This document shows positions 1 through 27,600 of a DNA stretch of 64,000 nt, piece after piece. The notes beneath the pieces were generated by a model. That model worked only from the letters and a program-made list of their open reading frames with translations. It did not search any database and was not told where the DNA came from. A program made the translations under genes and the position numbers. Every line of letters begins with the position of its first letter. The stretch's first letter is position 1. The DNA is from Amphiura filiformis (lineage: Eukaryota > Echinodermata > Ophiuroidea > Amphilepidida > Amphiuridae), in the NCBI RefSeq assembly GCF_039555335.1, contig NC_092646.1:23934893-23998892 (forward strand). Direction: 5' to 3'.

Positions 1-1027
1 TAGGTGTTTGGAAATATTGGTACTTTTGTGTTTTAGGAAGGATATGTAAACGACAGATAACACCAAAAAATATGAACAAATTATTTCTAAACTGTGTTAA
101 GTCTGCAAACCATTATGCTTCTCATTTTCAAGAACGCTGGTTAACAATAAGCAGACTATTGTCTCATTTCGTAAACAAAAGCCCAGACAGTATTGTTACC
201 TTGCGTTCGCTTTATAATCATTCACCCAACTGAAACTATAATACCAGCTCATTGTTCATTGCACAGGTAAAACAGACACAAGTGCAGTGTGTATTTAACC
301 AGAGAAGATCTGATGTAACATAGTTGAGCTGTTTTCATTGAGTGTTATCTTGGTTTAATAGCTTTTAATGTGGTTTAAGTCCTTCAAAGGTCGTGGTGAA
401 TTCTACTGTAGACATGACTGCATCATGATTATTTTAAAGTCAACAACATTCAACAATATGATCACCGTGATAGTATGACAGTATCAGTAGTGGGTGTCAG
501 TGATCCTGGCCTGACACAGTAGACAAACAAACAAACACGCCACACACATGGCACATGCATGCAAGATAACATTGACTATACACTAATCAAACAATGGTAT
601 TGATCCTGTACAACTGTTTGTGGTTTATTTACATTCGATTCATTTAAAATCCACATAGTAAACATTAATTTTGGCAAGAGTTTTCTCTCTCTGGAACGAT
701 GATGCATCAACTGGCTCCGCGTAATGAAAAGATCTAACATGATTGGTCAATTTAGCTCCGCGAAGCGAAAAGTAAGCTACGCGTAGCAGCTCCACGTTGT
801 GGCGGTTACGGCCAGCCATATACTGATCATGCGAAAATCGTAAAACATAGAATAGAAACAGTGTGGCCGGCTCTCAAAATCTCAAATTGTATGCATAGCC
901 TGAGTCGCACGGCCTATCTCGAACAAAATAGCTCAAAATCACCATGCGTAGTTGTTGAAAACGTGAGGATTTATCGTACTACCACGGCAATTTTTAAGAC
1001 GAAGATATAGGGATGATGATGGTGTGA
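1..1027. other. No gene seen
   Basis: No open frame with codon-like character and no recognisable domain. Short ACAAACAAACA and CACACA stretches lie near 520-545. A GCGAAGCGAAAAG/CTACGCGTAGC palindromic stretch lies around 745-790. Confidence 0.6.
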
Positions 1028-1180
1028 GGGATCTATACGATGATTTTGTTTTTTGGGTGGATCACCGCATAGGCATTTTACACATAAAATACACGTAACC
1101 CACACACAACGCAATTGAATAACAGACCAGCAGTGCCGCTTGGTTACCAGTTGTTCTCATTTATGTAATCAGCAATTGGA
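1028..1180 (+). repeat. Long direct repeat, copy 1 (153 bp)
   Basis: Begins GGGATCTATACGATGATTTT and ends ATCAGCAATTGGA. It is almost identical over its whole length (one base shorter T run in the other copy) to 1803-1954. The two copies bracket the tandem array 1190-1760. Confidence 0.92.
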
Positions 1181-1762
1181 TGTTGACTGTATCCAGTTTC
1201 ATGTTCATACAACAGTTTTTAGTAATATGACCCCTGGGTGACCCCAAAATGACCTTCCCAAAATTTTGATTCCAAATGTTGATTGTACCCACCAAGTTTC
1301 ATGTCCATACGACAGTTTTTAGTAATTTGACCTCGGATGACCCCTGATGACCCCAAAATGACCTTCCCAAAATTTGACTCCAAATGTTGACTGTACCCAC
1401 CAAGTTTCATGCCCATACGACAATTTTAGTAATTTGACCTCAGGTGACCCTGGATGACCTCAAAATGACCTTCCCAAAAATTTGACTCCAAAGGTTGACT
1501 GTACCCACCTAGTTTCATGCCCATACGACAATTTTTAGTATCTTCCCAAAATTTGACTTTAAATGTTGACCCACCAAGTTTCATGCCCATACTTGTTTTT
1601 AGTAATTTGACCTCAGATGACCCCTGGGTGACCCCAGATGACCTTCCCAAAATTTGACTCCAAATGTTGACTGTACCCACAGTTTCATGCCCCTACAACA
1701 GTTTTTGCAAATTTGACCTCAGATGACCCCTGATGACCTCAGGTGACCTTGACCCACTAACC
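1181..1762 (+). repeat. Tandem array, unit about 105 bp, five to six units
   Basis: Units share AGTAATTTGACCTC, GATGACCCC, AAAATGACCTTCCCAAAA, TTTGACTCCAAATGTTGAC and CCACCAAGTTTCATG. Phase marks (ACA[G/A]TTTTTAGTA) fall at about 1210, 1312, 1420, 1526, 1594 and 1698. One unit is therefore internally deleted (68 bp) and the others run 102-108 bp. Confidence 0.88.
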
Positions 1763-1802
1763 AATACAAACTTATGCTGGGGTCAAGATGCACCTAGAAC
1801 CA

Positions 1803-1954
1803 GGGATCTATACGATGATTTTGTTTTTGGGTGGATCACCGCATAGGCATTTTACACATAAAATACACGTAACCCACACACAACGCAATTGAATAACAGA
1901 CCAGCAGTGCCGCTTGGTTACCAGTTGTTCTCATTTATGTAATCAGCAATTGGA
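1803..1954 (+). repeat. Long direct repeat, copy 2 (152 bp)
   Basis: Second copy of 1028-1180. The near identity implies a recent segmental duplication, unequal exchange, or a haplotype join in the assembly. Confidence 0.92.
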
Positions 1955-3870
1955 GCCTACAAAATGTGGTGCATTTATAGTGTACGGTACTAACATGTGA
2001 TATCGGGAATTGACACAAATTTTACGGTAAAAAAATCAGTCATAGGCCTACACAGAAAGGATAAAATTCGAATTGAGAAAATATTGTATGTGTGACTTGT
2101 TGTACTAAAGATGCATCCACCCACCAAGTTAGAGGAACATGCTTCCCCTACTATGCTAGTCTGAGGTGCTCTGATGATATACTCTGACGATAACACTCCG
2201 ATCGCCATTCAATCTAAGTTTTGTAGGCCACTGGGACAACGGAATCACTACGTGAACGAGCTACTACTACACAGACAGACAAACAGATTCTAGTGAATTA
2301 AATAGTGATGATCAGTTGTAGCGACTACAAATCACGAATTGAACCCACTCCCTTATGCAGTGTTTGTGACCAAAACTTACAGCATAACAGCATTACTTTA
2401 TCAAATTCGGAAGACTGAACATCGGCACTATCGCCGTTTCATACAGTCACTTCCGGGTCCATTTTATCACTATCTGCGCCATCAATCCATTTCAGAATCC
2501 GAATTGATGCAGAATTTATCCTCATCTATCAAACACTCATGATTTTCTTATTCATCTGAAACATTTGCGACATATTTATGATATTAAATGTTGGCAAAAC
2601 TGCATCACTGCAACTGCATCGAAAAGATACGACTCTAGATTGTTTATCATAAACACATGGGCAAATGATAAAGGGCCGAGATACCTGTGAGATCCTGAAT
2701 ACATGAATGGTCAGTCTATACTCTCTACACGGCCGCTGGGGTTCGGATCGCTCCACTTCTAGTGTGAGCGAGCGGGCCAAAGCGGCTGATGTAGAGACTG
2801 AAAATTATATTCATTCATAAAACTCACGGCGCGTCGATTATACTACGGGTGACGTCGTATGAATTGAAAACATCAGCAAATAAATTTTTGACATTTTCTT
2901 TCCAGATTTATGAAGAAAATATGAATGTTTTTCAACAGATCATCAAATTACTTTATTATATTTTTTTTCAATTGGTAGCGTTACCCACACGCTTTATAAT
3001 TATATATTGCTCCCACGCTTTTTAGAAACCCACCCTTTATTCCGCAAAATTGTAATTTTTACAGATTTTCAGAATTCCCAACCCACGCTGTAGAAAGCGT
3101 GCCAGACAAACAATGATAATGAATAGCCAGATGTGACCTTCGCTGTCGAGACGTTGTTTTCAGGGTTGTTAAACCCGCGATTTGGTAACCCAATTAGGCG
3201 ACTTTTGAAGATTTTCCCGGGACAATTTCCTGCCCCATAGAATACAAAGGGAAAAGAAAAAAAATGGGCGACTTTTCGATTATTTGACCTGCGATTCGGG
3301 CTGAATTTTTTTGGCAACCCTGGTTATTTAGCGTTAATTTAACTAAATTACTACGCCGCTGGTCTCTAAATATTTTGAAGTGTTGTCCCATGGTAACAAA
3401 ACTCCTGAGAACTCAATAAACAATCTGGACAAAGGAATCATCCAATCACGTTTCTATCCATGTGAGATCACCGCAAAATTCATGATAAAAGGTCACTTTC
3501 CCAAAGAAAATAGTGCAATCCGTCAATTCCCGCCATGATCTCACAACTTAAATTACTCAGACCAAAATAATCTCTAGCGCATACAGGGAACCAAGCAAAA
3601 CGATAGAAATGACTTGTTTCTCATGACGACTTTTGACTTCTCTCACTTCAAAATAAGTACTTTCCCCACCCCAAATTCACTTCTAAAGGAGTGCAATCGA
3701 TTGCTAAATAACTAAGCAAACCTTGGAACGTAATTTCAAAGCCAGATATCATACACAAAAGAAGCCTTAGCATAAAAAGCAATAATGCAAGTGGCCAAAA
3801 TATGTAGCAAAAATACAGTCCTCACTGACTGCAATGACTAAGGCTCACTAGCTCCGCTAAGAGCCAAAAA
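1955..3870. other. No gene seen
   Basis: Several 65-84-codon frames show no domain, splice context or mutual agreement. A CRE-like TGACGTCG lies at about 2849. Nothing else is supportable. Confidence 0.55.
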
Positions 3871-4267
3871 CATTAGACGTTAACATATTAGTGGGCCTGC
3901 AGTGATGGGCTTTTGGTCTGAGGACCCGTCTTATATCTAACACGGGTATTTGTTAGGGGGAAATAAAACTAAATAATTATAAAACATTAGACGTTAACAT
4001 ATCAGTGGGCCTGCAGTGATGGGCTTTTGGTCTGAGGACCCGTCTTATATCTAACACGGGTATTTGTTAGGGGGAAATAAAACTAAATAATAAAACATTA
4101 GATGTTAACATACCAGTGGGCCTGTAGTGATGGGCTTTCGGCCCGAGGACCTGATCTAACACTGGTTTTTGGTATCTCTAAGGGGAAATAAACTTAAATA
4201 ATAAAATTCAGATGTTTACATATCAGCGGGCCTGCAGTGATGGGCTTTTGGTCCGAGGACGTGCCTT

Positions 4268-4617
4268 CAGTGGCGTAACCAGCGGGGGGGCTGGAGCCCC
4301 CCCAATTTGAACCCTTGCCCCCTGTTTGCCCCCCACCAAATGAAAAAGTTAAAGTAGGCCTACTTCTGAGAGTTATTAATTAACCTCATATCTGGTCATT
4401 TTAACCTTAAAAAACACAAATTTGTGCGCGCTTCGCGCACATTTATTCCACTTTTTTACCATATGTCACCAGTTTAGCTTCAATATGCCAAAACTTTTCA
4501 CAAGATTTGTACCATACACTTCTTTTGTCGCCAAAAGGTGCTGGATTCCTGCCCCCTCATTTATTATGTTTGCCCCCGCTTGCCCCCCCCAAATGAAAAT
4601 GTCTAGTTACGCCACTG
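4268..4617. mobile_element. hAT-like non-autonomous element, 8-bp target duplication
   Basis: Terminal inverted repeats are CAGTGGCGTAACC and (G)TTACGCCACTG. The flanks CGTGCCTT at 4260-4267 and 4618-4625 form an exact 8-bp duplication, the hAT signature. It is C/G-run rich near both ends and has a GCGCGCTTCGCGC palindrome at 4424-4438. No transposase is present. It sits inside a unit of the 110-bp array, which proves insertion after the array existed. Confidence 0.9.
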
Positions 4618-4746
4618 CGTGCCTTACATCTAACACGGGCCTTTGGCATCTCTTAGGGGAAATAAACTTAAATAATAAAACATAAGACATTAACATATCA
4701 GTGGGCCTCCAGTGATGGGTTTTTGGTCTGAGGAGGACCTGACCTA

Positions 4747-4958
4747 TAGACGAATCTGACGAGCCACATTCCTACACCTCACTGGCGGCCATAGTTTACC
4801 GCTCCCGTGACGAGGTGCAAGTGCTATGCGCTCCGATGCGCTCGCGATATTGGGTGTCTTGGATCGCAATCCAAACAGAGTAAGCTAGTTTGGCGCGGAT
4901 GGCCCCCAGCTATGGCCGACTTAATCCTGACTATCACTTGGCTCGTCAGATTCGTCTA
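4747..4958. mobile_element. Tc1/mariner-like MITE with TA target site
   Basis: The ends TAGACGAATCTGACGAGCCA and GGCTCGTCAGATTCGTCTA are perfect inverted repeats. Each is flanked by TA (4745-4746, 4959-4960). Inner sequences GGCGGCCATAG and CTATGGCCG also pair. It lies inside a unit of the 110-bp array; a relative is at 22681-22978. Confidence 0.88.
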
Positions 4959-5560
4959 TATCTGGCACTGGTATTTGTTAGGGGGAAATAAACTTAAATA
5001 ATAAACATTAGATGTTAACATATCAGTTGCCTGCAGTGCTGGGCTTTTGGTCCGAGGACCTGCCCTATATCTAACACTGGTATTTGTTGGGGGGAAATAA
5101 ACTTAAATAATAAACATTAGACGTTAACATATCAGTTGCCTGCAGTGCTGGGCTTTTGGCCTGAGGGCCTGCCCTATATCTAGCACTGGTATTTGTTACG
5201 AGGAAATAAACTTAAATAATAAACATTAGACGTTAACATATCAGTTGCCTGCAGTGATGGGCTTTTGGCCTGAGGACCTGCCTTATTTCCAGCATTGGTC
5301 TTTGGTATTTCTTAGGGGAAATAAACTTAATCAACATTAGACGTCAACATATCAGTTGCCTGCAGTGATGGGCTGTTGGTCTGAAGATCTGTCTTATATC
5401 TAACAGTCTTGTCTGTGTTATATCTTAGGAGAAATGAACTTCAATAATAAACTTAAGACATTAACATATCAACAGGCCTCCAGTGATGAGCTTTTAGCCT
5501 GAGGACCTGCCTTATATCTAACACTGGTCTTTGGTATCTATATGTATTAGGGGAAATAAT

Positions 5561-6431
5561 TGTAAAGAAAGAATAAATAAAAGACACAAAACTAATATCA
5601 CATAAACGAAGCGGACTTTGCATTCATTTTCAAAATTTTAATTGGTTTCATGATCATTCTAAAAATCCACATACAGGAATTGTGTTGGTTTCTTATGCTT
5701 GTGCTGGACTAACCATGGTCAAGGCACTGCTGGACAGGGTATCAAATTGGCTGTAAATATCTAAGAATTTCCTATAATATGGGCATCTAAATTGCTCTGA
5801 AAATCACAGAAAAGGTATCAAATTCCTTTCTACCAGACCTGAAGGGGTAGTAAATCTTTTAGTGATTTTAATTTCTTTATCACCAGAAAATGTTGTTCTT
5901 TTAAATAATTTTCGTCCCATTGAGGGTTATCTAAGCACAAGCATGGGAGTTTAACTAAGATCCCAGAAACCACTCCCTTTAGACAATACCTTTTTTTAAA
6001 AAACCCTTCAGAAACAAGACTTTTATTTTAAATCACATTGTTATGACTGCTATTTCAAACACTTCAAGACTTGATGGATTCGATGTGATATCACTGGTCG
6101 ATTTCAAATAAGAATCTGATGCAGCATTAAGGCTAGTCGGAGCAGTGCCTGATCTAGTAGTGTTTGTGCTCAAATATTGAGAAAAATAAAGCCCACACTC
6201 ATTAATAAAAGACTCCTGGTCTTCTGTTGTCTCTGCTTATCCTGGGACTCACTTTGTCTGTACTTCCTGTCACTTCAAGTTTGGTAGTGCTTTTACATCA
6301 TTTTGCTGCATGTGTGCGGACAAACCACCCTTGTATGGTTAACACAGGCGATTCAAAATTGCAACCAGCGAAAGAGGCAACTATGTCACTACCAAACTCC
6401 AGGTGTCACACAGTAGGTGACAATGCATAAC
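5561..6431. other. Downstream of BRIX1; nothing supportable
   Basis: This probably includes BRIX1 3' UTR or intergenic DNA. A minus-strand AATAAA lies at 6022-6027. No domain is seen in the short frames. Confidence 0.5.
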
Positions 6432-6602
6432 TGGCTTTTCCACATTATATCCATGCATCCCCTGCAAAAGACATGACCTTAATCTTCCACAAAGGGAGTG
6501 TGAATTTCAAATGGGGTTACCTGAATGGGTGACTCCATTTGAAATCTACACCCCTCATATCTTCCATAGGGGGTGTATGGGTTTCAACTGGAATAGCCCA
6601 TT
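6432..6602. mobile_element. GGAATAGCCCA palindromic MITE, copy a (worn left end)
   Basis: The right arm CATAGGGGGTGTATGGG...GGAATAGCCCATT and the centre GGGGTTACCTGAATGGGTGACTCC match other copies. The left arm is degraded before GACATGACCTTAATCTTCC. It ends only about 33 bp from the BRIX1 stop, so it lies in the BRIX1 3' UTR or just beyond. Confidence 0.82.
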
Positions 6603-6634
6603 ATGCACAAATCACAACAACATATAATAGCATA

Positions 6635-9600
6635 TCATGATTGGTCCGTTTCAAAGACTTCTTCAAGAGTCTGTGCATTGAATGTGACATCTGGTCTTCT
6701 CTCCTCCCTGCCCATCTTGGCTGCCACTTTATCTTGGTATTTACTGGACATCATCTTCTTCAGCTCACGTCGTTGCTAATGTTGAGAAACAAAAAGAAAT
6801 GGGAAAGGAAAGAGATATAATTATCAAGTTTATATTTAGAGAATAAAGGTATTATTTTTAGCTCCTGTTAAGCATCTATTGTCTCTTCATACACTCCTTT
6901 ATCAAAGCAGCCAATCAGAAAAGCTGTTAGAAAAGTAAGCGGTGTGCATTGATTGTGTATAATGTGCACTTTGTGTACTATGCACAGTGTTTCACATGAG
7001 TTCGCGTCACATAGGATTGATTCATTTGCCAGGCAGGTTGATGCATTTATATTTGGTTCTATTTTCCAACATATTTACTGAACATTTGTTATAAAAACAG
7101 CAAAAAGCATGTTTTTTTCTTCTCGTGTATGAAATAGGTTAATAAACATGTATTACTTGTTGCTTTAGATGCATCAACATCAGCGCACATGCATTATTTT
7201 GTCTAATTTCTCTCCCCACAAGTAACACACGTTCATTAACCTATAAATATAACACGGGTGACATCATTATGTTAAGTAAAACAATGAGGTTTCGCCATGT
7301 TGTTTTACGTCAAAAATAATGATGTCGTCCGTATTATATGAGACGATAGATGCACAACAGCGGCTAAAATAATACCTTTTATCAGCTTATAAAGCATACA
7401 GAAGTTTACCCAAATCAAAGTATGTCCCCTCCTTTTCTGCCTGCCATACTTCAAAAAGCCTTTATAATTATAACATGATGAGATTCAACATAATTTCACT
7501 GTGAATAAGGATACAGGCTGTATCAAAATGATGATATAGGTACCCATCAGTTTGATTATATATTAGACTGCCACTGCTACCTTATTTATAGATAAATGTT
7601 ATAAAAGGTCACAAAACTATAAATCCTGGGCATTTCAAATCCAATTTCAGCGACAGGATTGTCAAAAAACATCACATATCACGGTTGTTTGATGGGATCA
7701 TTTATTAGTTTTTCAAACAAAACATCATGTATAACCAACTTTTAGGCTTAAACACCTAAAAGTGATATCATGCTAATGTATACAGATGCTTTTGAGTCGT
7801 TCTCAACTTTAATTTCCCCTCTTTTACAAAATTATTCATTTTTATAGTATTTTTGAAGCTTTTTTGGATATAAAATGTATGTATTAATGCGCAAATTGGT
7901 GGTGCTATTTAGTTACTGGAAATTACCCTTTTAAGCTTTTAATACAAATAATTCCTTTTGTTGTTTGATAAAAATATGTTTATAAAATGTCCTTGTTGCT
8001 TGTTCCACCTATTCCAGCTATTTTAATGGCGGTATTAATCACCTAACCCTTGCAAATAAAGAAATATGATTTAGGGTAAATAGCGCCATCTATAGTTTGC
8101 ATTTAGTTAATAATGAAGCCAATTCTATATACGAAGAGCTTGTTTCCAAAAGGCGCTAAATCCATATTAGTGAAATGGGAGAAAATCATCGTTTTTTAAA
8201 TTAAAAGCCTTATTGGTATTTATTCATTTATTTTTTGGTTTTAAATGTTAGTTCTCATGTCAGTAACTACAAAAACACCAATTTTTGAGATCCTGATTAT
8301 AATATTTAATTGTAAGTATTCTTTTATTAAACAGCTTGAAGTGGATTTAGCGCCTTTTGGAAACAAAATATCCAATAACCGTGGATTTAGCGCCTTTTGG
8401 AAACAAAATATTCAATGATATTCAAAATAATTTGCTATATTAAACGAAATACACACAAATATTTTTTTATAAAGCAAACTGCACTTTATTTCAACAATGT
8501 AATGATATTTATTCACCAAAAGCTTGAAAATGTGAAAAAATTGTGCAAATTTTTTTCAAAAAAAATTTTCAACGAAAATTCGGTCAAATCATGCAATTTT
8601 ACACGCAAAATGTTGTCTGTGCTTGCTGGCGGTGTACTAGTGTATGTACATGTTGAAATTCTAAACTTTTGTGATTAAATTTTGATCAATAGTTGCCTTG
8701 TCAACAGGAGAATAGTCCTATGCAATTTTAGTCTTTAATTTCCTACTGAGCACGGTGATTGGTCGAATGGATTTAGCGCCTTTTGGAAAAAAACTGAAAT
8801 GGAGTTAGCGCCTTTTGGAAAAAAAAAAAGTCAAAATTCTGGCCCACCCTGTAATGGGATTAAGCTCCTTTTGGAAAAAATAGTTTGATTCCGTGAAACT
8901 AATGCCGTAACACTATACATTGGTACCAATAACTCAATTTTTTCCAAAAGTGGATTTAGCGCCTTTTGGAACCAAGCTCTTACATCAAACAGCCGTGATA
9001 TAGAGACGACAGTCCAGTTAAGTTGTCCGAAGATATGAGACACTTTTTTTTTCATTTTCAGCCTATTTCACAAGTTGGCCTCAAATGACCTTTGACCTTA
9101 GTGTGTGACCTTGAACTGTCACATAAAAGTTCCTATAGTGTAGCTATGGCCAAAAATTGGATTTGAACTGTTCATGCAAGTCCAGATTTTTAATTTTCAG
9201 CCTATAGATTTACAAGTTGACCTCTAATGATCTGTGACCTCAGAATGTGACCTTGGATATCACCAATACATGAAGTCATAATGCAGCTATTGCCCAAATT
9301 TGGTTGCAATAGGATTTAAACTCTTCATACAAGACCAAATTTTAACCAAAAGCCATACATAATTGTTGACAGGCAAAACACACACTGATGGACGTACAAC
9401 TCATGATGCCATAAGCTTTTTCTTTCGGAAGACACAGGGCCGGATTTACCATCCCCAAATTTTGGGGGCCCCCAAATTGCCCTGTGCAGTGTCCATCTTC
9501 CATTTTAGCCGAAAAACACATGTGTTGGGCCAAATCAGGGTACAAAAATTGCAAAATTTTGCGCGCTTCGCGCGCACTGCCTGTTATAGGCCTATAGCAA

Positions 9601-12600
9601 AATTCAGCTTCAATTTGGGCTAAAATAATTTAAAATTGAATTTTTGCGCACGCTTCGCGCGCAAATTTCCTAGTAAAGTCTAAAAACTTGGCTACTTGAG
9701 TGCACATGCCTTCCTGACGGTGCGTTTGGGGGCCTCCCAATTTTGGCCTGGCCCAGGGCCCCCAAAAAGGTAAATCCGGCCCTGGGAAGACATAAAAATT
9801 ATGTTCACATTAATATATCCATTTGAATCCACACACCCTGTATGGAAGACATGACCATAATCTTCATTCCAAATATATGCACAATATTACCAAGTGAATC
9901 ATGAGAAATAATAATTGGGAACACAATTGGTATCCCTTTAATACCTACACAATAAACTGAATCTAAACAAAAGGGGAATTCCCGATTTGAATAAACGTGA
10001 TGAGTTGGCAAGTTAAAATATTGAAATAATAGGAACCAGTTTATTTTCAGAATTTTAAAAATAGCAACCAGTTTATTTTTGGAATTTTAAAATTTCATTG
10101 ATTATTAATCTGATATTATAACTTTACTAAAAGGAAAGCAATAAAAGAAAGAGAGTTTAAATTATCTGAAACTTTAAAATAATACACCTTTTCCATGTAT
10201 ACTATTTTATTTTGTCCAAAAGATCTGAACTAAAGATGCGAAGATTACTATTGCAGTGAAAATAATAAACTGGGAAATTCCAAATTCAAAGTCAGATTAT
10301 CACGGCTGATTGAGCAATTATTGTTTATGTTAACTATGATTTGGTCACAAACAGACAGGTCTATGTATAGCCTCAATATCAAAGACACCTTCTTAAGATG
10401 AACACAAAATTCAACCAACCCACAGATAACCTGTCACAATGCCACTTGGGGATGAGTTTCTGATGCCTGGAATTACTGAATTTGGGTGACAGGGTTGCCA
10501 TATACATGTATGCACCTAATCCACACAATTGGGCTAGAATTGAGATGCCAAGGTCATGGGTTTGTCACCCAACAAGGAGATCTACAACACTGAAGTCTAG
10601 ATTCATGTATATTGTATAGCTCAATTGCAAAATATCACACCTAGATCGAAACCAAAATACTGTAAGTTTTGGATTTGGGGAATATTTTGTCAACAGAACA
10701 TTGTTTTGTAACAATCAGATTTGTTTAGGCAAAACTTGTCTTCAAACTTCAATATGTACCGTACATACCCCAGCAATGGACCAGATTGGTTAAGTTTACG
10801 ATAAGGAAGTAGAAAGTACATACAACTTTTGGGTTCAACTTCAACGTATCCATTCGAGGTAAGTGTGTGCATGTGAAATAATCCAACATAATAATGGTGA
10901 TTGAATAACTACATTTCAAAAAGCATTTTCCCCCTACATGTAAATCTTTCTTTTATTTTTGAAATATATTACACAGGTCACAGGTCATTGAACTTGGACT
11001 TATACTGGTATACCTTTAAAATAGTAAAATCAAATATCTTACTGTGTTTTCAAATCCTAAGGAAAGATAATTTTCAATTACCTAGGCAACCGATTACCTG
11101 GTGAAAGTGAGCTATATTGTACAGTACTTGCTACACCGCAAAAAATTGATAATAAGCATACGAGTTGCTTGGACACAAACAAATTTTAAGGATAGTTTGT
11201 TAAAACTTTTAATTTTTTTTTTCTTTTAATTTACAAATATCTGTGTATGTGCCTATTAACGAGTTGATCGGACAAGAACAAATTTTGAGGGTAGTTTAAA
11301 AAAAAAATGAAAAAGTTTAACAAACTACCCTAATTTTTTTTCTTGTTTGAACAACTCGTTAATAGGCACATATGCTTATTATCAAATTTTTACGGCATGT
11401 GATCCTCAGCAACTTTTTCTTTGTTAAGCATGCTTGACAGTTTGTTTCTTTTCAGCTAATAATTTTGAATGCCAGACAAGATACATAACGTAATAGCCAG
11501 GGCCGTTCCTAGGGATTTTGCCACCCTAGGCAAAGCCTCTCCCTACCATCCCACCAAAGGATACCAAAAAGTGATAAGGGGGGTTACCCCCTTGAAAACT
11601 CATCAGTTTTGACCTATTTGTACTGCCCATTTTTTCTTCTTTTTATCCGCCCTCATTTTTTCTTCCCTTTTCTTTCTCCATTCCCATTTTTTTTTTTTCT
11701 CGCCCCTCTGCATTTGCCACCCTAGGCGACCGCCTTACCTAGCCTAATGGTCGGAACGGCCCTGGTGTTTGCATCTCTTGGTCCAATTTCCAAGGAGGGT
11801 CTTATAAAGCAAATTCTTAATACTGTTTAACATTTTACTTTTAAATCCAGATGCATCAAGATGGGTGCTTCAGTTACTAAACTAGATACGGGCAATATTG
11901 ACTTAAAAGAATGCATTGGAGAAGGTGGATTTGGATCTGTCCGACGTGTCAAATTTAAAAAGCCCTACAAAGGATACACAGAAGCTGCCGGCAAAACAGT
12001 AGTTCATGAGTTTGCAAGCAAAGAGGTTGAAGTAATGAGCAAACTTTATCATCCAAACATAGTGAAGTTACTTGGGATTTGTGAAAACCTAGGTGCTAAA
12101 CTCATTGTAATGGAATATGCACCTAATGGTTCATTGCATGATTACCTAAAAGATCCAACGAAGCCTCTTCCATATGAGCTGCAAAAAAAGTGGGCAAAAG
12201 AATCGGCACTTGCAATCAAATATCTCCACGGACATGACTTCCTGCACAGGGACATTAAGCCCCAAAACTGCCTTCTCTTTCAAGACAACCTCTTGAAGTT
12301 GTGCGATTTTGGTCTTGCACGTGAGATAGAAAAGTCGCAGACAACATCCAGCCGGAAAGGAACCTACCGCTACATGGCACCAGAAATTCATGTGGGCAAT
12401 AAGCATGGAAGGGCTATCTACTCAAAACCAGCTGATATATGGGCTTATGGGATGCTACTACTAGCTATCTGCACAAGGAAACCACCATTTCAGCGATTGG
12501 AATGGCACAGGGTAGTCTTTGAAGTTGGCAATGGAGCCAAGCCATCAATACCTGAAGGCTGTCCCAAAGATCTGTCAGATATCATGCAGCAGTGCCGGAA

Positions 12601-15600
12601 TGTTGATCCTAAACTAAGGCCTACAATTACATCCATTGCAATGGGTATGTAGAGTAATTACTTTATTACGATATTTTCAAGAAAGATATTATAATACTTG
12701 TGATTTTATTTAACAAGGAGTGGATTTATAATTAAAAACGATTGAACCCTGGCAATAAACACGCTCACGCTTTTCTAGCAATGTGCCAGAAGGCTTTTGC
12801 AAAGCATACGCAGTAATTAAAGTGCGCGTTTGACAGGTGAACGTAAACACAACATGCACTTTGTGGGTAGAACCTCATTTTGAGACGACCGTGCAAGGGT
12901 GAATGGTGGTCGTTCTCACCAACTTTCATGAACCTGCAACGATCTATGGCAATTTGACCCCGTTGCTACAGTGGTCGTCCCCACCAAATTTCTTGAACCT
13001 GCAACAGTCCATGGCGATGGAATGAAGGATTAATTGATAACATGAGAAAACAGGAATTTCTAGTATATAATGTTGTCACTCTGTGCACACCAAATATGCT
13101 ATTAGTGCCGGTAAACAATAAATCTTATATATTTCACTTTCTCTTTCCCTAGCATTGGGTGCTTGTCGCAAGAGAGAATACCATCCAGAACATCAAGGGA
13201 AACAACTTGGGTGCTGTCACACTGCCTGCTGTCCAAATGGAGATATGGTCATGGCTTCTTGGGAAAAACTCTATCTCATAGACGGCGATGGGAAATGCAA
13301 AATGCCGCTGATATCAACTGAAACCGACGCTGACAGGAACATTAACTGTGTTTATAACATAAGTGTATCGCCGCTAGGATACATCTTTGTTGTAAGTTAT
13401 TCATGTAGATATGTCCATGTGTTTACCGTAGAAGGGAAATACCTCCACTGCTTCACACCTGATGGTGATTCCAACACGTCTTTTAAGACCAAGTGTCTTG
13501 CCATAGATAGAGAAGGTCGGTTGTTGGTGGGTGATAGGGAGATGAATACCATCACAATCCATACATGTCAAGATGGTAAGATGGTCAATAAGATCAACTG
13601 CTCAAAAATTGGCAAGAATGCAAGCATGATTGTCAATAGTAAGAATCAAATCCTGATTCATTCCAATCCAGTGTATAACACAGCGCGCTACAGTACAGTG
13701 GTAGCAATCGATTACTCAGACAATGAGGTGTTCAGCTTCACACCCAAGATAGATGAGGACGTTTCAGGTCGACATGTACGCCCATGTGGGATAGTGTGCG
13801 ATGACAACGATAACATTTACGTCGCAATGTTGATAGATGTACAAGGTGTAGTTGTATTTGACACAGGTCACATTCACAAGTACAGCCCCACGGGTGAATT
13901 CCTACAGTGCATTGCCAGAGGACTGTTCCATCCCTGCGATTTGTCCATGACGCCTGATGGATCACTGCTGGTCGCTAACGAGAAATCAATACTAAAATAC
14001 ACCCTGTAGTTTCAGCAACAAATACTGTAAAAGGGGATATATTCGCGAGCAGTTATTTTTGGCGATTAGGAGAAAAAGAGGCATTTTCGCGAATGTTATT
14101 GCTAAGTCCTGCCCTATACTTGTAATACATATTTGTATATATTCGCGAGGTGTTATTTTCGTGATTGGAGCTCCAATCACGAAATTCGCAAAAATTAAAC
14201 CCCACAAAAGTTTCCCTTTTACAGTATCTCATGATCATGATGGTGCAAATATCCATTAGATATCTTGTCAGTTTTGTATGTGGACAAAATTGATGTGTAC
14301 CAATCATTTTGATACAGCCTGTATACTAACCACAACTGATGTTGATAGTAAAAGAGACATACCGGCATATTACGTGACACATACCGTATTTCCTCGATTA
14401 GATCGCCCCTTCTATTAAACGCCCCCACCATTTTTTGCAACCAAGATGTTTAAAAACTGCTGACATTTTCATGCTATCTTGTGTAGTAAGCTTACCAAGG
14501 TGCACACATGATCGCTAATGGCGTTGGTAGTTGGCGAAAGTCTGATCGTAAACTCGGAAGTGAACCGGAAGTCATTGATCTTAAGTTCATCATTTCAGCC
14601 TGAATTTTAAGCTTATCTAATGATTTTAACAGGAATTATCGTTCTAAAAATGACCTCTAATAAACGCCTAAATGCAACACTCTCTGGGGTGTTTAATTGA
14701 GGAAATATGGCAATGCGGATTCTCATACAGTAATGGACCACCAAAACTTCCTTCAAATATCTTAATGAGGTTGAGAGGAAAGAGACTTATCATATTAGGC
14801 GACACATGTGGATTCACATATAATACTGGACCACCAAAACTTCCTCCAAATATCTTAACAAGGTTGAGAACAATAAGACTTACCATATTTCGGAATGCAT
14901 AATGTGGATTCTCATATAGTACTGGACCACCAAAACTTCCACCAAATATCTTAATGAGGATGAGACACAGAATTAGAGAAGGAGAACCGGGACTCCCTAT
15001 ACCGCCATATGCAATTGCGCCTTGAGTTATGGGGAGAAAATTGGGGGTATTCGGATCCTTGCCGATGGTGCGCGGAGATGAACGAAAACAATTCTGCTTC
15101 TCATCTGAAGCGTCTTGGTACTCGTGTGCAGGTCGCATCAAGTGCGTCTATCAAATGCGCCCATCATCCATGTCGCGCTTGCATGACTACGAATGCCTCA
15201 AGTGCATTTCGAGGGAAACTGAATACCCCCAATTTCAAGATGTTGGATTGAGTCCCGATTCTCCTTCTTGAGAGCAAAGAGACTTACCATATTAGGTGAC
15301 ACATAATGTGGATTCTCATACAGTACTGGTCCACCAAAACTTCCTCCAAATATCTTAATGAGGTTGAGGGCAAATCTGGGACCTATCTCAGCTAAGGAAG
15401 CATCTTCTTCTATAATCTGTTTCAATTAAGACATTAGATTTAGTTTGAATGTATGGATTGGAATAATTAAGATTATAAAAATGTATTAAAGGCATTAAAA
15501 GAGGCTTCTGCACCTTCAAGAAAATACAATATACATGTAAGGTAGCATTTACACAAAACATTTGCCATGACCAGATCAGAAAATTAAAAATTGAAAATCA

Positions 15601-18600
15601 GAAAAAAATAAAGCTTATTTGATCAAAACCTCTTGTTTCTCATGCATTTCTTTTAATATTTTACCAAAAAAATGTTCATTCAAATTTGGAGTAGTTTGTA
15701 TTTTTAAATGTATATTTTATCAATTGACAGGGTAATTAAGGGAACTGAAATGAGCGTTTTGAGCGTTTCGACAGCATTTTTTGTGGGACATGAGAGCACA
15801 TCAGACATATCGAATTGCATTCTGAATATGAAGAATGTCTTTCTGATATCAAATAATTTTCATTTTATGACAAATTATTAAAATTTGATATTTTTCACAT
15901 TTTGGAGATATAACAGTCCTCGAAGTAAATTTTATAAATTTAATGATATAGTCTTAAAGTGTATGTAGCTGGGAGGAAAAGCCGACGATCAATTGAAAAT
16001 TTTGACCTTTCATATTGAAGATATGGATTTTTTCCCAAAAGACCAATTTTTTTTTTTTGTGTTTTGGGAAAAAAAATCCATATCTTCAATACGAAAGGTC
16101 AAAATTTTCAATTGATCGTCAGCTTTTCATCCCACCTACATGCACCTTAGGTAGAAATCATCAGATTTATAAATTTTACTTGAGTACTGTTAAATATCAA
16201 AAATATCAATTTTAATGATTTGCCATAAAATGTGTATTATTGCAATTTCAAAAATCAAAATTATTTGATATCAGAAGGCCATTCTTCAGTATTCAGAATG
16301 CAATTCGATATGTCTGATGTGCTCTAATGTCCCACAATAAATACTGTCCAAACGTTCATACCGCACCCCTTAAGTTGACAGGCAAATTTGGTTATTCCAG
16401 TTGAAATCCACACACCCCCTATGGAAGACATGACCTTAATATTCTACTCAGGAGGTGTAGATTTCAAATGGAGTCACCCATTCAGGTAACCTTATTTAAA
16501 ATTCACACTCCCTGTGATGAAGATTAAGGTCATGTCTTCCATAGGGGGTGTATGGAATTCATCTGGAATAGCCCATCCCATCACAATAATAACTAGTTTA
16601 AGACACAAAAAAGGTAAAAGATGGCTGCCACACCTAGGTTTCATTATCATTGAGGTATAGGACTTTTTATTTTTTCGGAGGAGAGCAGGTAGGACAACTA
16701 CTTGATTATATTTCTACATGTTCATACTACATACTCTGAAAATTTTACAAAATTCGCACGAGTCCGTTTTTTAAAAATCACATTTTTGTTCCTAAAATGG
16801 GGGTTATAGCGCCCTCAACGGGCACTCTCTCCATAGGACTATATGTAAAGACCAGTATAGACAAATGGCCCTAAAATAAAAAGCGGACTCGTCTGCAATT
16901 TCCTCCAATTTTGCATATGATGTAGATTTAACATCTGGAATGTAATGCAAGTGATGTCGTTGCTGCTCTTCTAAATTCATTTTTAAAATGTCCGCCCCAG
17001 ACCAAGGTGGCCAGTCAGATTATTTGTATGATTCATTATTTCATGTTGCAATGGTTTGGATATGCTCTGCTTCAGTGCATTGCATTTGTTGTTAATTTTT
17101 ATGCGCTTTATGAGAACTATGTATGTATGTGTATCTCAAGAACAACCTATTGAGCTATAGTGCAAGAATTGTTAAACTGATAGTTTAGTTTCTTAATATT
17201 ACTGTTTGTCCAGGGGGAGGGTACTTTTATAAGTTCCAGGGTAACCAAGTGATCATGAGTTCCAGGGGTTCAAAAGGAGACCCCATACGTCCCACTAGAA
17301 ATTTCATTTGAAAGAACACAGCTTTCAACAGCTGTACGCACACACAGGAAATCATCACACAGTGTATGCAGAGAATCATCACGATGTGGTGAAATTATTC
17401 TAACAATGTTGCTGATTGTTCCAATTGATAATGAAAACTTCTTTTTGACCAATCAGCAGGTATTTCTCATGGGGTAAAGTTACCTGATAATTTCTAAACC
17501 ATATCCTGTTGTCAAGGACAGAGAATGTGTAGACCTTATCTGAGAATGGCTGACTCTTTGGATGCAGGTATGGTACGGAAAACATCTGAAATTCAACAAA
17601 ATACAATCAATTAAAGATACTCCAAATAACGTTCTGCAAATAGTTCATAAAGATTATCAGTAAAATAAGAATTCTTTTATACAAATCCAAAATTTGGGTT
17701 GATGGTACGTACCTCAATGACAGTTTTGTGCTAAGACTTACCACTTCTCAAATTGACTGACACATCAACGATGTGCAGGGATTGATCAGTCAATTTGAGA
17801 AAGTGTGTAGTCTTAGCATGAAACCGTCACTGAGATATGTAACATCAACCTAAATTTTGACTTTGTATAAAAGAATTCTGAAATAACTACAAATAAAGTG
17901 TTGGTGACTTAACAATTTATTCTTCTGACAACTGTGATATATTCAAATCATTTTGCATCAATACAACACAATCCTAGCACAGCTCCTCTCAACACTTTTT
18001 GAGATTATCAATACAATCTTACAGCTCCCCATAACACCTGGGTGGGGTGAAGCAATCAAGATTAAACACTTTGCCTAACTACCTCAGTTGATTTTGATTT
18101 TTTTTCCTGGAATGAATCAATACTACTTGCCAAGAGGGGCATAAAATGTAATATCCTTTCCTCTTTTCTCCTCTTCCTATCAATCAATCAATCAATCAAT
18201 CAATCAACTTTATTTCCATAATCATTCATCTCACCTGTAATAGCAGCTCCTTGAGTACTTGATAATGCGGTTCGGCATCAAACGATTTGTCAAATGACAC
18301 TATGGGTCGTGACCCCTTCAGACAGTTTCCTGTCATCTTCAGTTCACTCATTGTGTGCACTGCAAGGATAAATGTGATGGTTGAATGAGAGAAGGTCGTA
18401 AGTGCATCTGCATTAGGCCAAAAAAAATATTGTTGTGTTGCCCTCAACCGTCCTCAGGGTCGCATTTTTTTTTTTTGAATGATGATTTTTACAGATTTGT
18501 TCAAAAACTCAATGTTTTTCACTTAAAATTAATATTTTATTGTAAGACTAGTCTTTAATTGTTGTCTAACAGGTATCCAGAAGTCAAAATTGACAAATGT

Positions 18601-21600
18601 CCCCTTATTGAACAAGCATTATTTAATATTTGAGGGGATTTTTTAAGGTTTAAAAAAAAAAAAAAAAAAAATCCGACCGTCCTACACTACCAGGTTGCTA
18701 TTGCTGCCGACCCCAGAGGTACATTGCTGCCCAGCTACTTTTATGGTTACTCTAGAGTGCAGTACTAATCCAGTACCAGTGTGTGTACTCACTGTACTGT
18801 ACATGTGATTCCGATGTGTGTACTTACCCACATAGGTACTCTGAAGTATCAATAAAGTAGCTGGGCAGCAGTGTACCTCTGGGGTGGCAGAAATTAGGAT
18901 CTCATAGTGTACTCAGTCTTCTTCACTACGATTTCCTCTGGTCCTAAGGTCCGAGGCATTAACCATGCCAACCAGCAGGGCACACAGAAACCAAAATTAT
19001 TAACGAATTCTCACTTCCTACCTTTCATCAATCACATGAGGACAAAGTTACAATTACAAAAAACATTTGGCACATCAGCGTACATTTTGAGTACATTTAA
19101 AGGTGTACAAATGACCAAAAAATGGATTTACATAATTAGCTCATTAACATGCACATAATTATTGTTGTACTTACTATTTTCAACCAGAAACTTTGCTGAT
19201 GGCCCATGAGGCGGGTTTGAAATCCTGACAGAAAAAATACACAATAAAAAACTAAATAAAACAAGAAGACTGATAATGTAACATGGAAAAACATTGCATG
19301 ATCGACCGGAATATTATGGGCTATTTGCGGGGAGGAGATAAGATTGAGTGACCACTTGTAGGTTCAAATTTCAACCTGCATAATAATGAAGCTCCGGTGG
19401 CAACATACTTGGCAGTGGGGTTTGACCCCCACCCTTTTTATTTTACCCCCACCCTTTTTATTGAGGCACCCTTTATATTGAAAATTCCTGACCCCCACCA
19501 CTTTTTACTGAGGCACCCTTTATACTGAAAATTCCTGACCCCACCACTTTTTGCTTTTTCCCCTATTTGTATACATTGATGAAGTCACAGGCAATTTGGT
19601 TTGAAGTAAATCAAGTACGGTATGCCAAATTCTGCACCTATATCTCCTAGTAGATGTAAACATGCATCAAATGGAATTTTATCTTGCGATATGGTTTGCT
19701 GGCAGTGGTTTGGCACTTATTCTTGTGGTTTGGTACTTATTCTTGGAAACTAGGATGATTTTATCATTCAATGAAAATATATTGTAAGCTGGCACTCCCA
19801 CCCTTTTTATTTTACTCCCACCCTTTATATCAATCCACCCTTTTTACCAACAAAGTTTAAACCCCCACCCTTTTAAGGATTTTCCAAATTTCCAAGTGGC
19901 ACCCTTTAAAAAGGGTGCCCTGCCAACAGTGGGCAAAGTGGTTAAGGCACAGGTCTCGTAAATCTGAGGTCCTGGGTTTGATTCCCAGATGGGATCACCT
20001 TTTCTATTTGTCTCTTTTATTATTTGTGATGCTGAACCTGATTGAAAATTATGTTTACTTGTAATGTCCTTAATTACACATTTATAAGGGAAAAGGAAAT
20101 TTGTCTCACATGGGACTTGTGTCAGCAACCTTTTGTAACAAGTGTTTATTCACATTTTGGAAACATCTAGTCTTCTTAAGGATGCACACAGGATTGTTTT
20201 GGTGGGAAAATATTTGGACCAAACATGTAAATTAAATGAATGATAAAAATTGCATACTATTTTTCTAGAGTCGTTGCCAACAGCTGTATGTGATTGGATG
20301 GCAATCTTATTTCAATATACATAATGTGGCCGGGGGGAATATTGATCAAACCAGATCAAAAAAATAAAAAAATAAATGGAAACAGTTCCCCAAAACGAGC
20401 CTGCGGGCAACCTTAAATTGCCTCTTTGCAGTGTCCACGTCTTCTCTCAATACAAGGCTATATACAGTCAGAATTAATAGGTAAATTTTCACGGGAAAAT
20501 TTTCTGGACACGTGACACCCATGGGCGCAGACATATTAGCATTATGGAATGTGACCCCGAGCACAGCGGTTGTTCTTCCAATGTATTTGAATAGGAAGAA
20601 TTCCTCCTTTGAGGCAAAATAAGTTACTTTTCACGCAAGTTAATAATGTTATGGTAATACTTTCCGTAGATAAATATTTTTTTCCGTAGATAGATATTTT
20701 TAAAATTACGTTTTGATGATTTTGCTAAAAAATTAAGATAACATAATATTCAATAAATTTGCAATGCACAAATTTCTATCAAAATTGCGGTCAAAAATAC
20801 TATTCCAATTCAAAATTACCAAGACTTGAATAGCGAGTTCACCGCCGGGGGTCAGAGATCAGGTTCGAGGTTACACTCACATTGATAAGCATTGGTCACG
20901 TGTCCAGAAAATTTTCCCGTGAAAATTTACCTATTAATGTTGACTGATATATACAATTCAAAGGCTACTCTCTGAGCTACCAATTTGATTATTTTCTTTA
21001 CTATGTGCTTGTTTCAACTTGGCTTATGACGAGATGAGATGACTGAATGTTTGTGTCTAAAATCTTACCACATGTAAAGATCCATCTTCTTTCTTGCTTC
21101 AAAGAAAATAACTTTGTTACAATTCCGCATTTCACACAACTGCAATGAGAATAAAAGCCATATTATAACTGAAATCCAAGCTCGTAAGATTTGTTACTAC
21201 AATCAGTGTCCTCAACAACAATAGTATGGGGGTGTATGGGAACAATGTTAGTGTGATCATATCCATTCTTGGGCTTGTAAAAATTGAATTATATCTTTCA
21301 TGGAGTAATAGTAAACTTATGGATATGTAACCAACCTGGGGGAGAGAAGCCCAGTCACTGAAATTTTGGGTCTTGGTACAATGTAAAACAGGGTAATCAT
21401 CTAAGTTCATTCTTTTCTTTCATATTTTACCTAAAAATGTTTCCAATGGGGTGGTCTGGTTATATCATAGAGATTATGACCAAAGAGTACCGACTATCGT
21501 AAATCCACCATATTGGTTTGTTGCTCATGGAGGGCAAATAGTGTACCTCTGGTGTTTTTCAGCAGGAGTCCATCAATACCAGTATCAGCAGTAGATAGCT

Positions 21601-24600
21601 ACTTCATCAATACCAGTATCAGCAGTAGATAGCTACTTCATCAATACCAGTATCAGCAGTAGATAGCTACTTCATCAATACCAGTATCAGCAGTAGATAG
21701 CTACTTCATCAATACCAGTATCAGCAGTAGATAGCTACTTCATCAATACCAGTATCAGCAGTAGATAGCTACTTCATCAATACCAGTATCAGCAGTATAT
21801 AGCTACTTCATCAATACCCGTATCAGCAGTAGATAGCTACTTCATCAATACCAGTATCAGCAGTAGATACCTACTTCATCAATACCAGTATCAGCAGTAG
21901 ATAGCTACTTCATCAATACCCGTTTCAGCAGTAGATAGCTACTTCATCAATACCAGTATCAGCAGTAGATAGCTACTTCATCAATACCACTATCAGCAGT
22001 ACCAGTGTTTCGGCAAGAGCCAACAATTGAACAATATTTTGCGTCTTGAATGTTGAATGTTATTAACGTTTGTGCACTCAGCACACATTTGTGGCACAAT
22101 GTGTTACATGCAGAATGCAAACGACAATACACTTTGAATCAAAGTTTGCCGGTGCATAGCAAAATTATCTGGCGGAGGTACAATATTTGCACTCCATGAG
22201 GGACACGCAAACGTGGCGGAGTATGTACTCTTTGGTTCTACATCATTGGGTTATAAAATTTTGGTATTCTTACCTCATTTATATTTTGAAATCCTTGAGA
22301 TTTATCCATCTTTGAATCTGTAAATAGTAAAAATATTATTGCTTATTAGAAACAAATATACCAGTATCAGCAGAAGAAAGCTACTTCATCATTACCAGTA
22401 TTAGCAGTAGATAGCTACTTCATCATTACCAGTATTAGCAGTAGATAGCTACTTCATTAATACCAGTATCAGCAGTAGATAGCTACTTCATCAATATCAG
22501 TAGTAGATAGCTACTTCATCAATATATCAGTATCAGGGGTAGATAGCTATTTCATCAATATCAGTATCAGCAGTAGATAGCTACTTCATCAATATATCAG
22601 TATCAGGGGTAGATAGCTATTTCATCAATATCAGTATCAGTGGTAGATAGCTATTTCATCAGTTTTAGTTCAGCAAGATATAGACTAATCCAATTTCACG
22701 CATTCCTACACCTCAATGGCAGCCATAGCTGGGTCCCGTTGGCTCCATCCTACCTAAAATGTGAAATGATACAGCCTTGGTGGGGATTTTAAACTGCATT
22801 CTATTGTCTGTGTTACACATAGACAAAAGAATGATGACAGTTTACAATACAATATAAAATAAATTTTAAGCAGCTTCAATCCACCCAATTTGGCAGTCAC
22901 AATGCCAGTTTGGTGCGGAGGGGACCCAGTAATGGCCGAATGAATTCTGACCATCACTTGGCACATTGGATTTGTCTATAGCCACTTCCCCAATACCAGT
23001 ATCAGCAGTAGATAGCTACTTTCCCAATATCTGTATCAGTAGTAGAAAGCTACTTCAATACCAGTATCAGCAGTAGATAGCTACTTTCCGAATATCTGTA
23101 CCAGTAGTAGATAGCTACTTCAATACTAGTATCAGCAGTAGATAGCTACTTTCCCAATATCTGTATCAATAGCAGAGAGCTACTTCAATACCAGTATCAG
23201 CAGTAGATAGCTACTTTCCGAATATCTGTACCAGTAGTAGATAGCTACTTCAATACTAGTATCAGCAGTAGATAGCTACTTTCCCAATATCTGTATCAAT
23301 AGCAGAGAGCTACTTCAATACTAGTATCAGCAGTAGATAGCTACTTTCCCAATATCTGTATCAATAGCAGAGAGCTACTTCAATACCAGTATCAGCAGTA
23401 GATAGCTACTTTCCGAATATCTGTACCAGTAGTAGATAGCTACTTCAATACTAGTATCAGCAGTAGATAGCTACTTTCCCAATATCTGTATCAATAGCAG
23501 AGAGCTACTTCAATACTAGTATCAGTAGTAGATAGTATAGCTACTTTCCCAATATCTGTATCAGTAGTAGAAAGCTACTATATCAATACCAGTATCAGCA
23601 GTAGATAGCTACTTTCCCAATATCTGTATCAATAGCAAAGAGCTACTTCAATACTAGTATCAGCAGTAGATAGCTACTTTCCCAATATCTGTATCAATAG
23701 CAAAGAGCTACTTCAATACTAGTATCAGCAGTAGATAGCTACTTTCCCAATATCTGTATCAGTAGTAGAAAGCTACTTCAATACCAGTATCTGCAGTAGA
23801 TAGCTACTTTCCCAATATCTGTATCAATACCAGAGAGCTACTTCAATACTAGTATCAGCAGTAGATAGCTACTTTCCCAATATCTGTATCAATACCAGAG
23901 AGCTACTTCAATACTAGTATCAGCAGTAGATAGCTACTTTCCCAATATCTGTATCAGTAGCAGAGAGCTACTTCAATACCAGTATCAGCAGTAGATAGCT
24001 ACTTTCCCAATATCTGTACCAGTAGTAGATAGCTACTTCAATACCAGTATCAGCAGTAGATAGCTACTTTCCCAATATCTGTATCAATAGCAAAGAGCTA
24101 CTTCAATACTAGTATCAGCAGTAGATAGCTACTTTCCCAATATCTGTATCAGTAGTAGAAAGCTACTTCAATACCAGTATCTGCAGTAGATAGCTACTTT
24201 CCCAATATCTGTATCAATACCAGAGAGCTACTTCAATACTAGTATCAGCAGTAGATAGCTACTTTCCCAATATCTATATCAGTAGTAGAAAGCTACTTCA
24301 ATACCAGTATCAGCAGTAGATAGCTACTTTCCCAATATCTGTACCAGTAGTAGATAGCTACTTCAATACCAGTATCTGCAGTAGATAGCTACTTTCCCAA
24401 TATCTGTATCAATACCAGAGAGCTACTTCAATACCAGTATCAGCAGTAGATAGCTACTTTCCCAATATCTGTACCAGTAGTAGATAGCTACTTCAATACC
24501 AGTATCTGCAGTAGATAGCTACTTTCCCAATATCTGTATCAATACCAGAGAGCTACTTCAATACCAGTATCTGCAGTAGATAGCTACTTTCCCAATATCT

Positions 24601-27600
24601 GTATCAATACCAGAGAGCTACTTCAATACCAGTATCAGCAGTAGATAGCTACTTTCCCAATATCTGTATCAATACCAGAGAGCTACTTCAATACCAGTAT
24701 TAGCAGTAGATAGCTACTTCCCCAATACCTGTCTCAGTAGTAGAAAGCTACTTCATCAATACCAGCATATAGCCATTTCGCAGTGGGTGGTCTACCATTG
24801 CATTTGAATATTAGGAAGAATTTGAAGCAAAATAAGTTACTTGTTGCAAATTAATAATGTTAGGGTACGAGTTTTCATTAATAAACATTTTTTTCCATTG
24901 GTAGATGTTTTAATGATATTGAAGAAATTATGACTGCTGAATATTCAAAAAATTTACTATACACACATTTTGGTTGAAATTGTGGCCAAGAATACTATTC
25001 CAATTCTTGACCTGAATAGTGAGGGAAGGTTACACTTACACCGATACGCATTGGTCACATGTGCAGTAAATTTACTTGAGAAAATGTATTCTGTATATCG
25101 CCGACTGCTTATAATAGGGGCAGGGGTGTTTAAAATGAATTAAGTCTGATGCCCTAGTCTTACCTGCTTTTGAATGAGGCATTAACGTTCTTATATCCTC
25201 CATAAGATGCCTGCCTCGAAATGACACCCCTCTTGAAGCGAATACTAAAACACGCTGTTTGTTGGTCCATTTTGCCTACAGGATAAAAACAGGGAAAAAA
25301 TTATTACTTACAGATAAATTTCATTTTATTAGATATGTCAGGTTCAATGACCACTAGATACGAACCAAATTAGCAGCAACAGTGAATTTCAAAATGGCCG
25401 CCATTTTGGTACATGTATGTTGGCTTATTGACTTAAATTATGCACGTATTGCAACTTGAAACTTAAAGTAGGCATATGTACAGGGTTCGCAGGTTTTTGC
25501 CGTAGGTGGAAAAAACCGCGGTTTTTACCGCGGTTTTAACCACTTGGCAAAAACAGTTTTTGCCGGCAAAAATGGCAAAAACTAAAAAAGTGAATTATAG
25601 TTCAGTTTTTTCATTTTTAATGAGTTACAAAAATAAGTTCCCGAGTGTAACAAGGCCAGATTTTGTAATTATAAGCAATATATTAAGATATTAAGGGGGT
25701 ACTACACCCATGTGGTAAATTTGTGACTATTTTTGCATTTTTCTCAAAAAATATTTACACACTGGTAACAAAAGTTATGTATATTATTGGGGCAAGGAAT
25801 CCAATTACTACACTGAAATTTCAGTGACTCAAGACAAGCGGTTCCATATATATGATAAGAAACGAGGTACATCATAGCGGTACCTTATTTTTGATCATAA
25901 ATAACATACCGCTTGTCTTGGGTCACTGAAATTCCAGTGTAGTAATTGGATTTCTTGCCCCTATAATGTACATAACTTTTGTTACCACTGTGTTCTTAGT
26001 TTTTGAGAAAAATGCAAAAATAGACACAAATTTATCGAGGGGTGTAGTACCCCCTTAAAGGCATGCATTTTCATTGCTCAGGTGCGTTTAATCGAAATGT
26101 GGCATGTATCACAATTCAAAACTTTTTTAACTTTTTCATTTTAAGGACTTGATGAGACAAAAAATATATGTTGAATGATTCATCAAAAGTTGTGTGTTAC
26201 TTTTTATGAGCTTTCTGTGTCACTTTTTAATATTTGAGTGACTATATGTGGGTTTTGCCAGTTTTGCCATTTTGCGGTTTAAACCAGGCAAAAACTGGCA
26301 AAAACAATTTTTGCCAGGTTTTTGCCACTTTGCCGGCAAAAACAGGTTTTTGCCGGCAAAAACCGAACCCTGCATATGTACCAATTTGGCAGCCATATAA
26401 CATTTCAAAATGGCTGCCAGCTATATAATCACCGTTATAAAAATCAATATGTTGCTTACAGTAGGCCTATATTCTTGAAGTAAATAAAATTCATCTTGCT
26501 ATTCCACGATGCGATGCCTTTGTTTACAGCAGTATACATGGACCACATTGTTTGTATGTTGGAATTAGTTGTCATCATCATCATCATCTGAGAATAGTTC
26601 CTGATCCATGTTCTCACATTAGAGTATGTGTGCACATGCTCCAGTGCAATATTGAGTTCATTCTTTCTGCAGCTACATTTCATTGTGTTGCATCCTGTAG
26701 AACAATTGCATTGAATCATCTTCAGCAATGATTCTGGTGCTGGACTTCTTTTCATCATGAATGGAACAAATTTGTCACCCTGAAGAATATATCTCCAATC
26801 AATTGGATGCATAACTTCACTTTTACACATCCACTGCATGACCTATACATGTACCGTATTCGTTCCAATAAGCGCCCATGCCCCAATAAGCGCCCACCCA
26901 GCGACTTTGCAACAAACACAATATGAAATTATTAACCGCCCATCCAATGTTGTCAAAATACTTCCAGTAAGCTTACCTGTCGAGTGATTTTACATGCGTG
27001 CATGAGGGAAATTGAGCATCAAAAGTATCCAAAATGTTCACCAAAATTAAATGTATAGATATTAAAAATATTTCACAATAACCACCTGCAAATGCCTTTA
27101 AAAGGCCAAGTTTGAGCTAATTCTGTCTCAAATTCGTATTTTTTGCCGGCGCGGCAGCAGCCATCTTTATAGTGCGCCCTCAAAAACATTTTGTCAATAT
27201 AATATTAAATTAAGACACATATGAGGGCGCACTAACTGAGAGTAACTAAATACTTTCAGACGGTGATTGGTGACTAAAAACCAGGTACAAAATAAGCGCC
27301 CACCCAAAATGACTTTGATAAGCGCCCAGCGCTTATTGGAATGAATACGGTAGATTCATTCTTTCTGCAGCTACATTTCATTGTGTCGATCAATCTGAAT
27401 ACCACAATATAAAGATTCATTACTACATCCAGTAATGTACTTCTGAACAAGGTTGTCACCAGTGGAACCCACAAAAACGAGTGAAAAATTGATGAAATCA
27501 GTAGATTAATGGGTATTTTTCAAGCTTTTGGCGGCCATTTTGATTACGTCACAGTTGGACCCCTCGCCCAAGTTCAATTTTTGTAAACTTTTGATATGTT

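Follow-up and report, generated by a model that had tools for sequence, protein, structure and literature searches.

Does an animal genome encode a protein kinase and an NHL beta-propeller in one chain? The question is raised by two neighbouring reading frames on the plus strand of the window, by which we mean the whole 64,000-nt stretch of Amphiura filiformis DNA that was analysed, and which the original prediction had joined by one splice into a kinase-NHL fusion. Applying that join, we reproduced exactly its coordinates and its reading phase, and obtained a protein of 546 residues plus stop from positions 11861-12644 joined to 13153-14009 (1641 nt, ATG start, TAG stop). Judged from these letters, the two exons probably form one gene for a chimeric kinase, in which a MAP3K-like Ser/Thr kinase is followed by a TRIM-type NHL propeller, and for which N-myristoylation and partner-binding are proposed.

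The two exons and their junction

The gene model consists of the following parts:
11861-12644, plus strand: coding exon 1, holding the start codon and a complete TKL-type kinase domain (residues 1-261 and the first base of codon 262).
12645-13152, plus strand: intron of 508 nt in phase 1, GTATGT...CCCTAG.
13153-14009, plus strand: coding exon 2, holding the TRIM-type NHL beta-propeller and the stop codon.
14194-14199, plus strand: ATTAAA, the nearest AATAAA/ATTAAA 3' of the stop codon in a pattern scan.

Both exons lie within stop-free runs of the plus strand, at 11831-12652 and 13122-14009, which are 273 and 295 codons long, and neither a stop nor a frameshift interrupts the 1638 coding bases. 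Considering that the longest stop-free run in 30 random windows generated from a first-order Markov model of the window was 187 codons, runs of these lengths are not chance. Scoring of splice sites with general site frequencies showed that the acceptor before 13153 was very strong (rank 2 of the 3451 AG sites on the plus strand of the window), and that the donor after 12644 was moderate (rank 141 of 3484), though no donor from 12400 to the end of the kinase frame at 12652 scored higher. Exon 2 has its first in-frame ATG at 13245, and a start there would lose the first 30 residues of the exon, indicating that exon 2 requires an upstream coding exon. The phase match, the strength of the acceptor and the lack of an early ATG in exon 2 thus argue well, at the level of DNA, for the exon join. 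Third-position GC was 0.38 in exon 1 and 0.47 in exon 2, which we counted against a single gene.

Across the plus-strand frames of 1-11862 and 14010-23872 no other Pfam domain was recognized, including RING and B-box, in a search that may overlook domains divided among short exons. These scans covered the three plus-strand frames of 2000-11862 and 14010-23872 at a cut-off of 0.5, where two matches (0.06 and 0.37) were both under the curated cut-offs, and positions 1-2042 of the plus strand at a cut-off of 0.01, where no match was returned. On the minus strand, at the same cut-off of 0.01, the 2000-11862 region gave nothing and the 14010-23872 region gave Brix only.

The kinase, the propeller and the N-terminus

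The kinase half matched Pfam PF07714 (PK_Tyr_Ser-Thr) at 8.1e-55 over residues 14-262, corresponding to profile positions 2-257 of 258, and contained the G-loop, AAGK (K45, aligned with the VAIK lysine of TAK1), HRDIKPQN, DFG, APE, DIWAYG and RPT motifs. With these catalytic motifs intact the kinase looks active; by its HRD it belongs to the RD kinases, and by HRDxKPxN and GTYRYMAPE to the Ser/Thr type. TAK1 chains came first of 965 solved sequences (E up to 1e-20), at 136.1 bits and 34% identity (89/265), and were followed among the best 60 of the 965 by a reconstructed SRC-ABL ancestor (133.9 bits), EGFR (127.3 bits), MAP3K9/MLK1 (124.5 bits) and CSK (122.1 bits), with no bacterial kinase name among those 60. 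Since the SRC-ABL ancestor scored so near to TAK1, the kinase subfamily is not firm, and "TKL, TAK1/MLK-like" is a fair label with a narrow margin over tyrosine kinases. The complete-looking TKL-type kinase of the original prediction was therefore borne out in its complete catalytic core, by Pfam and by the motifs, whereas its TKL placement depends on this narrow score margin.

For the propeller half, the whole-protein Pfam NHL score of 21.4 bits was narrowly above the cut-off of 20, with none of the single repeats passing alone. Firmer evidence came from phmmer searches, in which exon 2 matched NHL structures of TRIM3, Thin, TRIM71, TRIM2 and Brat, with E from 7.2e-11 (TRIM3) to 6.6e-6, and hhalign to segments of the TRIM2, TRIM3 and TRIM71 NHLs gave 97.5% over query residues 67-275 of 284. 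Because of these matches we assigned the propeller to the TRIM type, in agreement with the TRIM-like NHL propeller that had been predicted. Most of the TRIM2, TRIM3 and TRIM71 NHL entries matched have chains of 277-288 residues, one TRIM71 entry having 409, which fits six repeats; counted by eye, the propeller would have six blades.

Two features bear on where the protein begins:
11861-11881, plus strand: N-myristoylation-type start MGASVTK, which fits a PROSITE-style pattern, with A at -3 and G at +4 of the ATG.
11849-11850, plus strand: candidate acceptor AG to which an upstream exon, probably untranslated, may be spliced (rank 266 of 3451, below the AG before 11726 in score).

The myristoylation-type N-terminus, for which the known start pattern is MGxxx[S/T], had been overlooked in the original prediction, and suggests that the kinase is possibly lipid-anchored. 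The highest 19-residue hydropathy in the protein was 1.34, where the usual threshold for a membrane helix is 1.6, so no membrane helix is evident; with no RING or B-box recognized by Pfam in the protein, the predicted lack of RING, B-box and transmembrane segment was upheld. Upstream, a strong candidate donor (score 11.7) follows position 10858. Joining 10600-10858 to 11851 produced an in-frame stop and then no in-frame ATG before 11861, and this stretch would consequently be untranslated unless further exons exist. The candidate acceptor at 11849-11850 also means that more upstream coding sequence is possible, in which case MGAS would be internal.

Genomic surroundings and competing explanations

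Elsewhere in the window we recognized the following features:
About 18.5-18.2 kb and 17.6-17.5 kb, minus strand, downstream of the gene: Brix-domain exons (Pfam).
28865-29365: fragment of a reverse transcriptase, probably from a LINE-like element (Pfam RVT_1, 1.7e-13).
35973-36047: tRNA-Thr (CGT) gene.
62652-63095, minus strand: exon of a Saf4/Yju2-type splicing-factor gene (Pfam, 3.4e-27).

The domain types of the protein itself, and the Brix-domain and Saf4/Yju2 exons nearby, fit the animal setting that had been proposed for this locus. On the minus strand, an exon at 15268-15440 resembles the next part of a BRIX1 gene. A 101-nt unit occurs four times on the same strand within 14675-15368, three times in tandem at 14675-14964 and once at 15268-15368, with copies that are 64-87% identical, without gaps, to the reference copy; the unit resembles part of a BRIX1 exon, and its last copy runs on into a longer BRIX1-like reading as far as about 15420. 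Minisatellite blocks lie within 21571-24755, with 34- and 65-nt units in up to 27 copies and the common motif CAGTATCAGCAGTAGATAGCTACTT. Upstream of the gene, a nested inverted repeat of about 260 nt (11136-11395) resembles a foldback transposon, and a dispersed repeat at 11498-11763, about 100 nt before the start codon, has a second copy at 56054-56486 with 82-88% identity over two pieces. Downstream, 14382-14710 has an inverted copy at 36289-36599 that is 72% identical and is probably a transposable element.

The two halves could belong to separate transcription units, with a stand-alone kinase ending at the TAG at 12650-12652 and the NHL exon lying in another transcript or in untranslated 3' sequence, an explanation that we regard as unlikely, although several observations speak for it. 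If the intron is retained, this in-frame TAG ends the kinase just beyond its complete domain; the GT sites at 12836, 12898 and 13110 within the intron outscore the chosen donor, and AATAAA occurs inside the intron at 12754 and 13117. Caution about novel domain pairs is also advised by work on lancelets, which traced interspecies differences in domain architecture to gene prediction errors (PMC4967905). Against separate units, the NHL exon has no early in-frame ATG, its acceptor is one of the two top scorers of the window and agrees in phase with the donor of the kinase exon, and the plus strand of 1-11862 yielded no further exon recognizable by a Pfam domain.

Two further explanations accept the fusion and differ over what it does. 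In one, which we consider improbable, the propeller would bind RNA, as the NHL domains of Brat, LIN-41 and TRIM71 do, and would aim the kinase at ribonucleoproteins. The NHL domains of TRIM71 and Brat are indeed among the nearest solved relatives, but those of the TRIM2/3 type, which are known mainly as protein-binding, are about as close to exon 2, and the slightly negative net charge of the exon-2 part (28 K+R, 32 D+E) makes RNA binding a less likely role for the propeller. The RNA targeting suggested in the original prediction, which would follow by analogy with the family, is thus not favoured by this charge balance. In the other, which we hold to be slightly less probable again, the locus would be a young lineage-restricted chimera, or one of decaying gene copies, without a selected function. 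Such an origin would suit the confinement of each domain to a single exon, the transposon-like repeats that flank the gene on both sides, and the lack of a paralogue, neither a further kinase copy nor a further propeller copy having been found in the window by tblastn. It is less easily squared with a coding sequence free of stops and frameshifts throughout, with catalytic motifs that were intact in every case looked for, and with two stop-free runs that both exceed the longest in the random windows.

Proposed mechanism and comparison with known systems

Returning to the single gene for a chimeric kinase that we prefer, a mechanism can be proposed that starts from the two domains, the intact catalytic motifs, the phase-matched junction and the N-terminal motif. 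Once expressed, the protein would be lipidated, and N-myristoylation would keep the kinase at the membrane, while the propeller may bind a protein partner or scaffold as its putative ligand. Clustering could then lead to trans-phosphorylation of a Thr/Ser of the activation loop, in the TTSSRKGT segment (residues 161-168), and the activated kinase might phosphorylate downstream targets, with MAP2Ks as plausible substrates in its pathway. On a broader reading, which we put forward tentatively and hold to be rather doubtful, the protein would represent an undescribed animal family of lipid-anchored kinases with a TRIM-type propeller, arisen by exon joining, in which the layout of PknD has been rebuilt intracellularly and the propeller, on sensing a ligand within the cell at the membrane, directly switches a MAP3K-like kinase.

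Among the matches listed in literature searches of partial coverage, no animal kinase-NHL protein was found, and database records of one may exist. Within the same partial coverage, no paper was returned with "PknD-like", with "kinase-NHL" phrases, or with NHL domain, kinase domain and kinome together. The word NHL is absent from the main text of an oyster kinome paper (PMC4883820), and a survey of TRIM genes assigned the NHL-bearing subfamily to animals and, in the sections consulted, mentioned no kinase partner (PMC3503706). These searches are weak evidence that the animal pairing is new.

A bacterial or defence origin was considered and rejected. The PADLOC model mad6 (PDLC04138) matched the kinase (11861-12643) at 258 bits, but human TAK1 scored 268 bits on the same model, and we therefore did not read the match as a defence-kinase relationship; with these two kinases scored, the model may recognize eukaryotic TKL-like kinases and not MAD6 alone. 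In scans that detect close relatives only, viral contigs gave 1 and 7 pattern matches to the two exons with no confirmed relative, and genome contigs gave one bacterial kinase segment, 28% identical over query residues 54-156. The NCBIfam matches (16, of which 14 were to the kinase and 2 to the propeller) were all far under their cut-offs, the PknD model PRK13184 giving 46.2 bits with the kinase vs a cut-off of 839. The propeller matched 17 PDB sequences at E up to 10, none of them named PknD, in a PDB copy that may lack the PknD propeller.

Mbk of M. tuberculosis is the same kinase as PknD. Published bacterial kinases with NHL repeats include Mycobacterium tuberculosis Mbk and a Deinococcus protein, which, like the present protein, carry the kinase at the N-terminus and the NHL repeats at the C-terminus of a single chain; Mbk differs in its transmembrane region, none being evident here, and in its outside NHL repeats (PMC1262709). 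Of the original claim that PknD is the nearest known arrangement, the kinase-then-NHL layout stood, whereas the contrast drawn over the membrane helix was weakened by the MGASVTK start, since a lipid could stand in for the membrane helix of PknD. Each half is of animal type, and PknD is an analogue in layout, probably by convergence, and not an evident relative.

The two halves also resemble animal proteins taken separately. TAK1 (MAP3K7) is the top-scoring solved kinase domain, with the MLK MAP3K9 somewhat lower, but an NHL propeller here replaces the C-terminal regions of TAK1 and the MLKs, which are TAB2/3-binding in TAK1 and a leucine zipper in the MLKs; the C-terminal TAB2/3-binding region by which a TAK1 orthologue would be recognized is thus not found. 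With the TRIM-NHL proteins (TRIM2, TRIM3, TRIM71, Brat and Thin) it shares the type of C-terminal NHL domain but, unlike this TRIM subfamily C, it has no RING or B-box, and it is a kinase that precedes the propeller. The TRIM-NHL propeller, which usually aims a ubiquitin ligase, thus appears here to be coupled to a kinase. A real fusion would point to NHL targeting modules that can be exchanged between ubiquitin and phosphorylation signalling, and would provide a simple two-exon case of domain shuffling creating a signalling protein, with a probably convergent counterpart in bacteria.
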